Of a stretch of DNA of 64,000 nucleotides, positions 1-4,061 are shown piece by piece. The DNA comes from Deferribacter autotrophicus (GTDB lineage Bacteria; Chrysiogenota; Deferribacteres; Deferribacterales; Deferribacteraceae), in the NCBI RefSeq assembly GCF_008362905.1, contig NZ_VFJB01000008.1, positions 117,904-181,903 of the forward strand, read 5' to 3'. Within the stretch, counting starts at the first letter, position 1. Each line of letters begins with the position of its first letter. Both the position numbers and the translations under genes were made by a program. The notes beneath the pieces were generated by a model. It worked only from the letters and a program-made list of their open reading frames with translations. It was not told the DNA's origin and did no database searches.

Positions 1-726
1 TTAAGGAAGGCAAAGACAGACAAATCGGATTCCAAATTGATAGCGGAATATGGGCTGGAATATGGTTATAAATGGAGATTTAAACCTAAGGATGAATTAT
101 ATTATGAGATAGATAGTCGTTTAAAAGCAATAGAGGATTTTCAATCTCAGATAAATAGATTGAATAATCAGATAGAGGGATTTAGCCAATTGCCATATGA
201 ACAAGAAGAGGTTATATCGTGTTATAAAGATGTAATTTCCGCCTATAAGAGCAAGATTAAGAAATTGGAGCAGGAACTAGAGGTTTTGTTGAAAAGTCGT
301 TATAGAGAGGAATATGAGTTAGTTATGAGTATTCCTGGAGTAGGTATGAAGTTAGCGTCGATAGTGTTGGGCAAATTGGAGTGTTTTCGTAATTTCAAGA
401 GGGCGAAGGAGGTTGTTAGTTATATAGGTTTGTGTCCTTCTATTAGGGAATCTGGGACATCTGTAAGGGGAAGGGGACATATATCAAGGAGAGGAAATGC
501 TTATATAAGGAAGATATTGTTTGTATGTTCATTGTCAGCGATACGGTATAATAAATTTTGTTCAAATTTGTATAGAAGGCTTTTATCATCAGGTAAAGCG
601 AAGAAATTGGCGATAATAGCAGTAGCGAATAAATTGATAAGGCAAATATTTGGTGTATTAAAAAACGGTAGGCCATATGATCCAGAATATTTAAAAAATT
701 TAACAGAGGTTACAGAAAATGGTTGA
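1..726 (+). CDS. IS110-family transposase, C-terminal part (5' end outside window)
   Basis: The frame is open to base 1, so the true start lies upstream; the TTG at 37 is only an internal codon. The visible 241 residues begin inside a KTDKxDxxLIAEYG-type segment typical of the IS110/IS116/IS902 family. A helical middle part follows, then the C-terminal Transposase_20 region with a SIPGVG motif (near residue 116) and a RGRGHISRRGN segment that holds the conserved serine of this family. In the family the N-terminal DEDD RuvC-like domain and the C-terminal serine domain act together in cut-and-paste insertion. The N-terminal catalytic residues are not in view, so I cannot say whether the gene is intact. 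Confidence 0.9.
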   Translation, partial: LRKAKTDKSDSKLIAEYGLEYGYKWRFKPKDELYYEIDSRLKAIEDFQSQINRLNNQIEGFSQLPYEQEEVISCYKDVISAYKSKIKKLEQELEVLLKSRYREEYELVMSIPGVGMKLASIVLGKLECFRNFKRAKEVVSYIGLCPSIRESGTSVRGRGHISRRGNAYIRKILFVCSLSAIRYNKFCSNLYRRLLSSGKAKKLAIIAVANKLIRQIFGVLKNGRPYDPEYLKNLTEVTENG

Positions 727-921: not shown

Positions 922-1053
922 ACCCGAAAAATGTTTTCCCACAAACTCATTAAAAAAAGTTTTGTAAAAAATGGGGTGACGCCAGATATTTTCATAGTTG
1001 AAATTTTCTTAAGCTGATGATAAGTTAAGTAAAATTTAATCCAAGGAGTTTGT

Positions 1054-2118
1054 ATGAATATTTTAGCCGTTGATCCCGGTTCTACATCCACAAAAATAGG
1101 CATCTATTTTAATGGAAAAATATATAAACATAAAGTGGAACATCTGGATGAAAATTTTTTAAAAATAAAAACTGTGGTGGAGCAGAAAGATATTAGGTTT
1201 GATAATATTAAACAATTTTTAAAAGATAATAATTTTGAAGATGTTAATTTTGATGCCATAGTTGCCAGAGGGGGATTGATAAAAAGTGTTGAAGGCGGGG
1301 TTTATGAAGTTAATGAAAGATTGATTGAAGATTTAAAGAAAGGAGTAAACGGTGAACATCCAGCAAATTTGGGTGGAATATTAGCAAGAGAGTTTGCAGA
1401 GATTTATAATTGTCCTGCCTTTATTGTGGATCCACCGATTATTGATGAAATGTGGGAAATAGCAAAGATTACAGGGGTCAACTCTATAACAAGAAAAAGT
1501 AAGTTTCATGCATTGAATCATAAAGAGGTGGCAAGGCGTGTTGCAAAAGAAAAATTGAGTAAAAGATATGAAGATTCTATCTTAATTGTGGCTCATATGG
1601 GTGGCGGTATAACCATAGGTCTTCATTATTATGGAAAAGTGGTAGATGTGAATAACGGTCTTGACGGTGATGGTCCTTTTGCTGTTGAAAGGGCTGGAAG
1701 CTTACCTGTGGACGGTATTATTGAGTATTTAAAAAACACCGAAATGTCGCTGGATAAGTTTTTGAAACTTGTTGTAAAAGAATCAGGAATATATTCACAT
1801 TTAAAAACTAAGGATATGATAAAAGTTGAAGATATGGTTACAGGTGGCGATAACGAAGCAGAAAAAGTTTTGGATGCTTTTGTGTATAATATATCAAAGG
1901 AGATAGGTGGTTTGTTTGCTGCGGCTAAGGGAAAAATAGATGGAATTGTTCTCACAGGAGGTTTAGCCAATAGTAAGCTTATTGTGGAAAAAATAAGAGA
2001 TTACGTTGGTTTTATGTCGGAGATATATGTTGTTCCTGGTGAATATGAAATTGAAGCATTGATTAATGGTGCTATTAGAGTTTTAAAAGGAGAAGAAAAT
2101 GCTAAGATCTATGAATAA
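1054..2118 (+). CDS. buk: Butyrate kinase (ASKHA family)
   Basis: 354 aa, the usual length for butyrate/branched-chain fatty-acid kinases. These interconvert acyl-phosphate + ADP and the free acid + ATP in the cytoplasm. The N-terminus has the phosphate-binding DPGSTSTK segment (residues 7-14); a second glycine-rich AHMGGGITIG segment lies near 178-187, and LTGGLA near 301. The ATG at 1054 has a good AAGGAG site (1043-1048). The stop overlaps the start of the next gene, which carries a phosphate butyryltransferase domain, so the pair forms the classic Ptb-Buk route between acyl-CoA and acid plus ATP. The preferred substrate (butyrate or a branched-chain acid) cannot be read from the sequence. 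Confidence 0.93.
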   Translation: MNILAVDPGSTSTKIGIYFNGKIYKHKVEHLDENFLKIKTVVEQKDIRFDNIKQFLKDNNFEDVNFDAIVARGGLIKSVEGGVYEVNERLIEDLKKGVNGEHPANLGGILAREFAEIYNCPAFIVDPPIIDEMWEIAKITGVNSITRKSKFHALNHKEVARRVAKEKLSKRYEDSILIVAHMGGGITIGLHYYGKVVDVNNGLDGDGPFAVERAGSLPVDGIIEYLKNTEMSLDKFLKLVVKESGIYSHLKTKDMIKVEDMVTGGDNEAEKVLDAFVYNISKEIGGLFAAAKGKIDGIVLTGGLANSKLIVEKIRDYVGFMSEIYVVPGEYEIEALINGAIRVLKGEENAKIYE

Positions 2119-3622
2119 ATATGGGAATATAGGGAAGAATATTACGGAAATTTTGGTAAGCAAAAACATAGACAAATCCGAACTTTCAAAATTACTTGGT
2201 ATCACAGATGATGAAATTGATGCTATATTAAAAAATGAAATTCAACCCTCTGTTTCTCAACTTTTAAAATTATCCGCTTTCCTCAGCGTGGATATTCCAA
2301 CAATTTTATTTGGCGAATCTTATGAAGATAAAAAGGTTGCCAAAACGACACCTGAAGAAAGAATTGTTGTAAAAAGAAAAGATTATCTTGTCTATGAAAG
2401 TCTTGCACCAAAATATTCAAGTAAAGCTATAGAACCTTTTGTGGTAGATATTTATAAAACAAAAGATTACAATGTTGATGAAAGTGTACATAATGGAGAA
2501 GAGTTTATCTATGTTATGGAAGGGAAAATCAGGATGGTCATCGATGGGAAAGAATATCTGCTAGATGCAGGTGATACCATATATTTTGATTCATCTTTGA
2601 AACATAAGATTGAGTCAATAACAGATAAATCTAAGATTTTTGCAGCTCTTTATTATGGTTCTTCAATGCTTTTGAAGACAAAAGGTAAAAAAATGAAAGA
2701 TTTGATACAAGCTGCAAAAATAATCAATCCGCAAAATATTGTTGTAATAAATCCAGATAAATCATCTCTGGATGCTGTAAATAAAGCTATAGCAGAGGGG
2801 ATAATAAACAAGGTATATCTTGTGGGGAACAAGAAAAAATTGGAAAAAGATTTGAGTGATTATCTTATATTTCAAAAACATTATGTCTATGAACATATTG
2901 ATGATAGTGAAACTTATTTCCAAGATTGCACTAAAAAAGGGATTGAGCTTATCAAAGAAGGTAAAGTCGATTTTATAATGAAAGGGAACATAAATACTGC
3001 TATAATGTTAAAAGAGATATTAAATAAGAAAACTGGAATTCCTTCCATGCGAAGATTAAGTCTTGTAAGTATTTTTGAATTATACGATAGAGAAAAGTTT
3101 ATATTACTTACTGATCCTGCTATAAATACCGAGCTTTTTCCTGGTGGCAATCTGGATTTAAGTAAAGATATTATTAATAATGCCATTGATGTTGCAAAGG
3201 CTATAGGAATTTCTGATATTAAAGTGGCTCTTCTTGAAGCAAATGAGATCCCAACAGAAAAAATACCCTCTACAATTTTAGATCAGGAATTGTCAAAGTT
3301 AAAGTGGGAGGATGCTGTAGTTTATGGCCCCCTTTCTTATGATCTGGCGCTGTATCCTGATGCTGTAGAAAAGAAAGGGTTGAAAGATAATCCTGTGGCA
3401 GGAAATGCCGATATCCTTGTTGTGCCACATATAGAAGCTGGGAATTTTCTTTATAAATCATGGGCTATGACAATGGGTGCTGATGTAGCAAATGTTGTTG
3501 TGGGTGCGAAAGTACCAATTGTCATTACATCGAGAAGTGATAGCGATATGGTGAAGTTTTTAACGATTTGTGCCAATGCTATTTTTGCCAACTACTTGAG
3601 TATAAAAAATGGAAACGATTGA
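2099..3622 (+). CDS. XRE-cupin regulator fused to phosphate butyryltransferase
   Basis: 507 aa with three parts. Residues about 13-68 form an XRE-type helix-turn-helix. Residues about 113-185 form a small cupin with H131, E135 and H169 as possible metal ligands. Residues about 199-505 form a complete PTA/PTB phosphotransacylase, with the DFIMKGNINT, LLTDPAIN, KVALLEANE and GPLSYDLALYPDA segments typical of phosphate acyltransferases. Ptb converts acyl-CoA + Pi to acyl-phosphate, the substrate of the kinase next door. The ATG at 2099 is chosen over the one at 2111 because AGGAG (2088-2092) lies six bases before it; it overlaps buk by 20 nt. The frame runs through all domains without a break. 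A sensor-regulator joined to the enzyme of its own pathway suggests autoregulation, which is inference. Confidence 0.9.
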   Translation: MLRSMNKYGNIGKNITEILVSKNIDKSELSKLLGITDDEIDAILKNEIQPSVSQLLKLSAFLSVDIPTILFGESYEDKKVAKTTPEERIVVKRKDYLVYESLAPKYSSKAIEPFVVDIYKTKDYNVDESVHNGEEFIYVMEGKIRMVIDGKEYLLDAGDTIYFDSSLKHKIESITDKSKIFAALYYGSSMLLKTKGKKMKDLIQAAKIINPQNIVVINPDKSSLDAVNKAIAEGIINKVYLVGNKKKLEKDLSDYLIFQKHYVYEHIDDSETYFQDCTKKGIELIKEGKVDFIMKGNINTAIMLKEILNKKTGIPSMRRLSLVSIFELYDREKFILLTDPAINTELFPGGNLDLSKDIINNAIDVAKAIGISDIKVALLEANEIPTEKIPSTILDQELSKLKWEDAVVYGPLSYDLALYPDAVEKKGLKDNPVAGNADILVVPHIEAGNFLYKSWAMTMGADVANVVVGAKVPIVITSRSDSDMVKFLTICANAIFANYLSIKNGND

Positions 3623-4061
3623 ACGAGTATTAATAGTAAATAGCTCTATAGAAAAAGTTTGGGATTTTTTTACAAATCATAAAAATCTAGAAAAGTTAAA
3701 TCCCCCAGAAATCAGATTTAGGGTGGTTAACAGTGTTTTTGATGACAAAATATTTGATGGAAATATCATAACTTACAAGTTTCAAGTTATGTTTTTTACT
3801 TTTACATGGGTAAGTAAGATATCTGCTGTCAAAGAATATATGTATTTTATAGATAAGATGATTAAAGGTCCTTTCAAAAGATGGTATCATTTCCATCATT
3901 TTGAAAAATTGGATAATAATAAAACGTGTATTAAAGACAAGATTCTTTATGAGCCTCCTTTTTATCCGGTTTCTTTTTTTACCAATGGTTTTGTTCGTAA
4001 TAAGCTTGAGTACATTTTTCAGTACAGGGATAAAGTGTTACAAAAGGAATTAAATCAATAA
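3609..4061 (+). CDS. SRPBCC (START-like) family protein
   Basis: 150 aa. The N-terminal EKVWDFFTNHKNLEKLNPP segment and the alternating strand pattern are those of the SRPBCC/polyketide-cyclase ligand-binding fold (YfjG/CDR type). The ligand is unknown. It overlaps the preceding gene by 14 nt, so it is probably the last gene of the buk operon. A strong hairpin follows. The convergent neighbour is a TIGR01777 epimerase, a family that elsewhere occurs fused to an SRPBCC domain, which suggests a functional link. Confidence 0.75.
   Translation: METIERVLIVNSSIEKVWDFFTNHKNLEKLNPPEIRFRVVNSVFDDKIFDGNIITYKFQVMFFTFTWVSKISAVKEYMYFIDKMIKGPFKRWYHFHHFEKLDNNKTCIKDKILYEPPFYPVSFFTNGFVRNKLEYIFQYRDKVLQKELNQ

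Follow-up and report, generated by a model that had tools for sequence, protein, structure and literature searches.

Near the start of a 64,000-nucleotide (nt) stretch of the Deferribacter autotrophicus genome (contig NZ_VFJB01000008.1, positions 117,904 to 181,903; hereafter, the window), the gene for a butyrate kinase (buk) is followed by an open reading frame of 507 residues that joins an XRE-type helix-turn-helix (HTH), a cupin and a phosphate butyryltransferase (Ptb) in a single chain (Table 1). The initial annotation of this DNA had read the frame in the same way, and Pfam searches agreed, with each domain over its cut-off and in that order: HTH_26 at residues 14-69 (26.4 bits, cut-off 22), HTH_3 at 17-66 (26.0 bits, cut-off 23), Cupin_2 at 129-178 (48.2 bits, cut-off 27.2) and PTA_PTB at 214-484 (100.2 bits, cut-off 24). 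The overlap with buk that had been reported was confirmed at 20 nt, with an AGGAG at 2088-2092 ahead of the fusion start codon, and the pairing of enzyme and kinase also stood, as the neighboring protein passed the butyrate kinase model. An AlphaFold2 model of the fusion (mean predicted local distance difference test score 85.2, predicted template modeling score 0.78) placed HTH helices at residues 11-21, 27-33, 37-44, 52-62 and 66-71. The domains are known and their combination is new, and a change of job is likely.

Table 1. Features at the buk-fusion locus, in positions of the window.
Feature	Position	Strand	Basis or remark
XRE-cupin-Ptb fusion protein	2099..3622	+	507 aa, ATG start; open reading frame call, Pfam, homologues
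buk, butyrate kinase, 354 aa	1054..2118	+	TIGR02707, 420.8 bits (cut-off 289.1)
HTH (XRE-like) domain, residues 11-72	2129..2314	+	Pfam HTH_26 and HTH_3 just over cut-off; five model helices
Helix 3 (recognition helix position), residues 37-44, DDEIDAIL, acidic	2207..2230	+	Model helix 37-44; family statistics
Linker and cupin, residues 73-185	2315..2653	+	
Predicted metal triad H131, E135, H169	2489..2491, 2501..2503, 2603..2605	+	Invariant in fusions; HppE has H, E, H at the aligned sites
Ptb (PTA_PTB) domain, residues 196-500	2684..3598	+	
Small SRPBCC-like protein	3609..4061	+	Polyketide_cyc, E 0.002, under that model's cut-off
Weak TTTAGTNNNACTAAA palindrome copy, 3 mismatches	1025..1039	+	29 nt 5′ of buk

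Homology searches indicated that the fusion is genuine. From 7,993 candidates scored, 339 homologous proteins were identified at E ≤ 1e-3, and the 120 of these that were listed were all single chains of 490-518 residues with both a cupin and a PTA_PTB domain, including proteins 85% identical (named Deferribacter abyssi) and 70% identical (D. desulfuricans) to that of the window. A sequencing or annotation artefact, which two separate genes in close relatives would have indicated, was therefore rejected, as the listed homologues are one-chain proteins, they recur in named genomes, and the fusions group together in trees of both halves. In the tree of the Ptb half (48 fusions, 15 standalone proteins) the fusions were set apart by a branch supported at 100/100, at a fusion/standalone split where the tool warns of long branches meeting, and in that of the XRE-cupin half (24 fusions, 39 free proteins) they grouped with support of 98/94. 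Each half being one clade, a single fusion event is likely. The simplest history, with which the trees are compatible, is one fusion followed by transfer between lineages, the transfer being our inference.

The distribution of the fusion was wide and uneven. Among named genomes it was present at 44 of 48 loci (one clipped by a contig end), the remaining four being Ptb-only, and these 44 span five phyla: Campylobacterota (Desulfurellales/Hippea, 7), Desulfobacterota (20, of which 12 Geobacter-like), Deferribacterota (3), Spirochaetota (13) and Acidobacteriota (1), as taken from record titles and partly checked via tree labels. Whole-genome searches within the window's own phylum found the full fusion in 9 of 50 genomes. 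Elsewhere it was sporadic, with the seed genome alone among 297 genomes evenly drawn from one phylum, and likewise among 198 from another (E ≤ 1e-60). The window's own genome gave no second Ptb-type match, just frames of 336 and 783 residues with weak PTA matches; standalone Ptb-like frames were also present in 4 of 9 other fusion genomes.

At 40 of the 53 fusion loci read (three of them counted twice), buk lay on the same strand, at most 4 kb 5′ of the fusion. The gap between the two genes was mostly −23 to +12 nt, and exceeded 100 nt in four Desulfoluna-type loci. At three Hippea-group loci (L041, L042 and L046) the operon runs in the order free XRE-cupin, gamma subunit of a 2-oxoacid:ferredoxin oxidoreductase, GltD-like protein ending in a ferredoxin (delta-like) portion, alpha subunit, beta subunit, buk, fusion. 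In the scan of protein families, which was made on L041, the gamma subunit passed the PorC/KorC subfamily cut-off, and the other subunits fell under those of their best models, so that the assignment stays at the level of 2-oxoacids.

To compare the regulator-like half with its relatives, we assembled 156 distinct fusions and 253 free XRE-cupin proteins (114 nearest free relatives, 20 from the window's own or related genomes, and 119 others). The Arg11 (helix 1)-Glu36 (helix 3) pair, whose role in XRE domains is known from the 434 repressor, was complete in 31 of the 156 fusions, compared with 114/114 of the nearest free proteins and 35/35 of the free set thinned at 60% identity. It was incomplete in the other 125, with both sites hydrophobic in 116, and the fusion of the window has Leu at both. 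The initial annotation had named a loss of HTH residues in homologues as evidence that would count against its interpretation, and such a loss is largely what the comparison revealed.

Helix 3, at the position of the recognition helix, was mostly acidic in the fusions, with a mean net charge of −2.62 (negative in 143/156) compared with −0.49 in all free proteins (negative in 99/253) and −1.51 in the nearest free (74/114). The difference held between the thinned sets (22 fusions, 35 free; p 4e-5), in which helices 4-5 and the linker plus cupin had no charge difference between fusion and free proteins. Inclusion of the nearest free relatives had moved the free mean for helix 3 from +0.35 to −0.49, weakening the contrast, and left the Arg-Glu result unchanged. 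Helix 3 also varied more: at matched cupin identity, it was 63% identical in 68 fusion pairs and 92% identical in 106 free pairs (disjoint pairs, p 1e-16). Across the family the HTH was also less well recognized by Pfam: at E ≤ 0.001 HTH_26 matched 38 and HTH_3 matched 33 of 67 chosen fusions, compared with HTH_19 in 40/40 and HTH_3 in 38/40 of the chosen nearest free proteins. Within one operon of the Hippea group, HTH_3 matched the free protein at E 1e-15, and the fusion had no HTH match at E ≤ 0.001.

The cupin, by comparison, has been kept. H131, E135 and H169 were each present in 156/156 fusions and in 114/114 of the nearest free proteins, and they align with the H, E and H of hydroxypropylphosphonic acid epoxidase (HppE), an enzyme that also has an XRE-like HTH beside its cupin and in which these residues are metal ligands. 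Among solved structures in the PDB, HppE was the best sequence match to the N-terminal half (51.7 bits), with the regulator 1y9q close behind (48.6 bits); as an HTH-cupin enzyme, HppE is a precedent for the explanation that we prefer below. As the HppE cupin is itself the catalyst, the cupin of the fusion might be a second enzyme acting on the same acyl compounds as the Ptb domain. We consider this quite unlikely, because the triad is just as constant in the nearest free XRE-cupins and hence gives no pointer to catalysis. HppE has no Ptb domain.

The promoters of the buk-fusion genes provided a separate view of regulation. The nine Deferribacterota buk promoters each had their best match to the palindrome TTTAGTNNNACTAAA at −29 to −33, with no mismatch in two, one in five, two in one (genome G001) and three in the window; some of the nine had served to define the palindrome, and their P values are therefore after the fact. 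Among 23 control genes of the window with an upstream gap, none had a match with 0-1 mismatch and one had a match with two, and buk promoters at 28 loci of other groups had at least three mismatches. The same palindrome was found before a free XRE-cupin gene. The own-genome free protein (L033) has close relatives, of which we examined 24 (61-100% identity, one per genome); their promoters matched with 0-1 mismatch in 5 and with 0-2 in 18 (among these L200, where the site is elsewhere positioned), including in genomes without the fusion, and the recognition helix SKALISQIENN was identical in 24/24. The promoters of the three other own-genome XRE-cupin genes tested had 3-4 mismatches. In the Hippea group, the operon promoter had no mismatch in L046 and one in L041 and L042, and the free XRE-cupin heading that operon is 43% identical to L033.

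These data bear on the proposal of the initial annotation that the protein is a trigger enzyme, that is, a Ptb that also binds DNA to repress its own buk-ptb operon and is released by acyl-CoA or acyl-phosphate. The HTH of the window is still recognizable by Pfam and is folded in the AlphaFold2 model, and there is a palindrome at the buk promoter; in genome G009 the remaining exact copies fall within coding frames. A published account also describes the XRE-cupin regulators it covers as binding palindromes beside their own genes and repressing neighboring metabolic genes (PMC7901475). However, the recognition helix of the fusions is mostly acidic and variable, the Arg-Glu pair is mostly lost, and the palindrome stays while the helix changes, as the fusions behind it carry helices as unlike as EKDEFNRILNNELQP, SRDDYNMIISNEAHP and DVYQLSDYINEKSSP. 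The palindrome is, in addition, common to the promoters of a free protein. The residues of the Ptb are kept in the fusion and its DNA-binding part appears eroded, and the palindrome, present at the locus and weak in the window, seems better explained by the free XRE-cupin. We therefore consider the trigger enzyme unlikely; what held of the initial annotation was the domain architecture, the buk overlap, the pairing with the kinase and, within the papers searched, the lack of a described counterpart. The free XRE-cupin is a likelier repressor of the buk-fusion genes than the fusion itself, because free proteins of constant helix have the palindrome in their promoters too and because a free XRE-cupin heads the Hippea-group operon.

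We did not take the palindrome to mark a genome-wide regulon. The one-mismatch pattern is common by chance: a reversed control gave more hits than TTTAGTNNNACTAAA in 12 of 13 genomes, the counts in genome G002 being 28 against 27. In the fetched stretches of three Calditerrivibrio-type genomes, 11 of 45 palindrome hits were outside long frames. In a Calditerrivibrio-type genome, one-mismatch copies preceded an alpha-like frame of a 2-oxoacid oxidoreductase accompanied by a ferredoxin (L111:959), an AGCS-like transporter (L127:1010) and, farther off, a glutamate-dehydrogenase-like frame (L132:987), the last two named by eye. These three sites could possibly belong to an amino-acid regulon, though none is claimed; the transporter site was not kept in relatives, whose complete proteins are only about 36-46% identical.

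Other palindromes were seen before buk outside the Deferribacterota. At four Desulfobacterota loci (L068, L071, L079 and L081; three Desulfoluna, one Desulfobacterales), TTACGTTAACGT(AA) palindromes unlike the Deferribacterota element lie 93-265 nt before buk, and presumably resemble the site of a branched-chain amino-acid regulator. Some 28 nt 5′ of buk, two Geomonas loci (L055 and L057) have a near-palindrome in common, GTTTGGTTATATCAAAC.

Our preferred explanation, which we hold to be somewhat on the probable side, is that the fusion is a predicted Ptb-type acyltransferase in which the XRE-cupin module serves as a ligand-sensing part of the enzyme, and not as a repressor of its own operon. 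The Ptb domain would form acyl-phosphate from phosphate and a short or branched acyl-CoA, and Buk would use the acyl-phosphate to make ATP. At the three Hippea-group loci the acyl-CoA would likely derive from amino acids, because the four-gene 2-oxoacid:ferredoxin oxidoreductase set precedes buk and the fusion. The cupin would bind a metal and a metabolite of the pathway, altering the activity or assembly of the Ptb domain, and transcription would be controlled by the separate free XRE-cupin reading TTTAGTNNNACTAAA.

Several observations weigh against this explanation. The HTH of the window is over two Pfam cut-offs, so that in domain terms it still resembles an XRE-cupin repressor (the match is weaker across the family), and the Arg-Glu pair is retained by 31 fusions. 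The window's own copy of TTTAGTNNNACTAAA is weak (Markov P 0.22) and compatible with chance. No buk adjoins the fusion at 13 of the 53 loci (12 spirochaetes and one Desulforapulum), at three of which the contig ends within 312 nt upstream. The nearest free (sister) group is acidic at helix 3 as well (mean −2.15, 13 sequences), and drift of its helix 3 is similar to that in the fusions (6 disjoint pairs compared with 76, p 0.3). Acidity as a trait of the fusion only was therefore rejected: neither acidity nor drift is special to the fusion, and part of the change in the helix may predate it, whereas the loss of the Arg-Glu pair, which is kept in 13/13 of the sister group, is special to it.

Drift was also not confined to helix 3, a further point against our explanation. 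In the matched pairs, helices 1 and 2 changed faster in fusions than in free proteins (69 vs 84% and 68 vs 91% identity), and helices 4-5, the least changed, did so slightly (88.6 vs 93%). With the HTH fold kept while its surface drifts, and with L56 fixed in the fusions (153/156) and rare in free proteins, the XRE-cupin half could be a structural scaffold that merely sets the oligomer state of the Ptb without any sensing. XRE-cupins are considered to work as dimers (PMC7901475). A cupin triad invariant in all 156 fusions is, however, beyond what a scaffold needs, and we regard this explanation as improbable.

In the Ptb half, 31 positions are common to fusions and standalone Ptbs, each being conserved in 97% or more of 155 fusions and in 12 or more of 15 standalone proteins, which favors the enzyme part of our explanation. 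The fusion differs from a Ptb such as that of Clostridium acetobutylicum (7vg9) in its own long branch (2.6), in its regulator-like extension of 190 residues and in scoring 204.7 bits against the NCBIfam equivalog TIGR02706, under the cut-off of 410.5. A further 44 positions fixed in the fusions are not fixed in standalone Ptbs, which is another point against our explanation, and the substrate may therefore differ from theirs. The PTA domain of the malic enzyme MaeB is effector-sensing, and other enzymes, too, contain PTA domains (MaeB entries were among the matches), so that the Ptb domain here could be a catalytically dead sensor within a regulator. That seems to us scarcely credible, as the residues of standalone Ptbs are kept, buk adjoins the fusion at most of the loci read and it is the HTH that is decaying.

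The relatives of the N-terminal half suggest where the module came from. Its nearest free relatives (tree fork support 100/97) were found at nine places in seven genomes among 119 genomes of one phylum (E ≤ 1e-30). An acyl-CoA synthetase-like frame was next to the HTH-cupin on the same strand in eight of these, at 9-126 nt in seven and 492 nt in one; two of these frames were confirmed by Pfam as AMP-binding (E 3e-69 and 4e-57), and the other six were named from the appearance of their N-terminus. At the ninth place (L241:2613-4907), the HTH-cupin and an AMP-binding enzyme are one chain of 764 residues, and at one sister-group locus a standalone Ptb is upstream (L242:2308-3342). No member of the sister group was found in a further 195 genomes, phylum-wide, in a search without a positive control. 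The adjacency to synthetases and the 764-residue chain suggest that this HTH-cupin branch and acyl-CoA enzymes are functionally linked and that fusion has occurred twice, separately; we take the module to be a portable, probably ligand-sensing partner of such enzymes. More tentatively, and with rather less confidence than doubt, we speculate that this XRE-cupin branch left DNA to become a portable sensor for enzymes that make or use acyl-CoA: it would be encoded next to AMP-forming acyl-CoA synthetases, and would have been joined to a synthetase in one lineage and to Ptb in a second, which has spread to five phyla.

The closest known systems each share part of this design. XRE-cupin repressors (PuuR, ErfA, PsdR, PauR) have the HTH followed by a cupin with the same triad, and the fusion differs from them in its mostly lost Arg-Glu pair, its mostly acidic and drifting helix and its attached enzyme; the PuuR model matched it weakly over residues 10-177 (43 bits, cut-off 211). 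The 764-residue chain of L241 comes from the same HTH-cupin branch (best hit) and has an acyl-CoA enzyme attached, an AMP-forming acyl-CoA synthetase; it differs in the identity of that enzyme and was seen in one genome, and by eye it keeps the Arg and Glu with an acidic helix 3. BzdR joins a DNA-binding HTH to a shikimate-kinase-like domain, a metabolic enzyme fold (PMC3602430). There an enzyme came to serve as the sensor of a functioning regulator, whereas in the fusion the body of a regulator has seemingly become part of a working enzyme. Among the matches seen, no solved structure or NCBIfam model covers the HTH, cupin and Ptb domains together, and in the open-licence literature of PubMed Central no paper contained both "phosphate butyryltransferase" and "cupin"; nor did the paper titles listed in further literature searches point to a fusion of this kind. 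As far as could be searched, then, the initial annotation was right that no protein of this architecture has been characterized.

Two further features flank the genes. The SRPBCC-like gene begins 14 nt before the fusion gene ends and is not a common neighbor across the loci read. An IS110-family transposase-like frame lies at window positions 37-726, 5′ of buk, and in this strain an insertion there may have altered the promoter of buk.

Enzymes that turned into regulators are known, as in BzdR. On our more speculative reading, the XRE-cupin-Ptb fusion would be the mirror image, a repressor that became the allosteric domain of an enzyme. If our interpretation is true, the fusion would offer a concrete, testable route by which sensing domains move from genes to enzymes. 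To our knowledge, there are few descriptions of an enzyme that retains the body of a repressor as a functioning part once the residues for reading DNA are gone. The fusion also advises caution against naming such proteins transcription factors on their domains alone, and the separate free XRE-cupin becomes a candidate repressor of the buk-ptb genes in Deferribacterota and Hippea-group bacteria.
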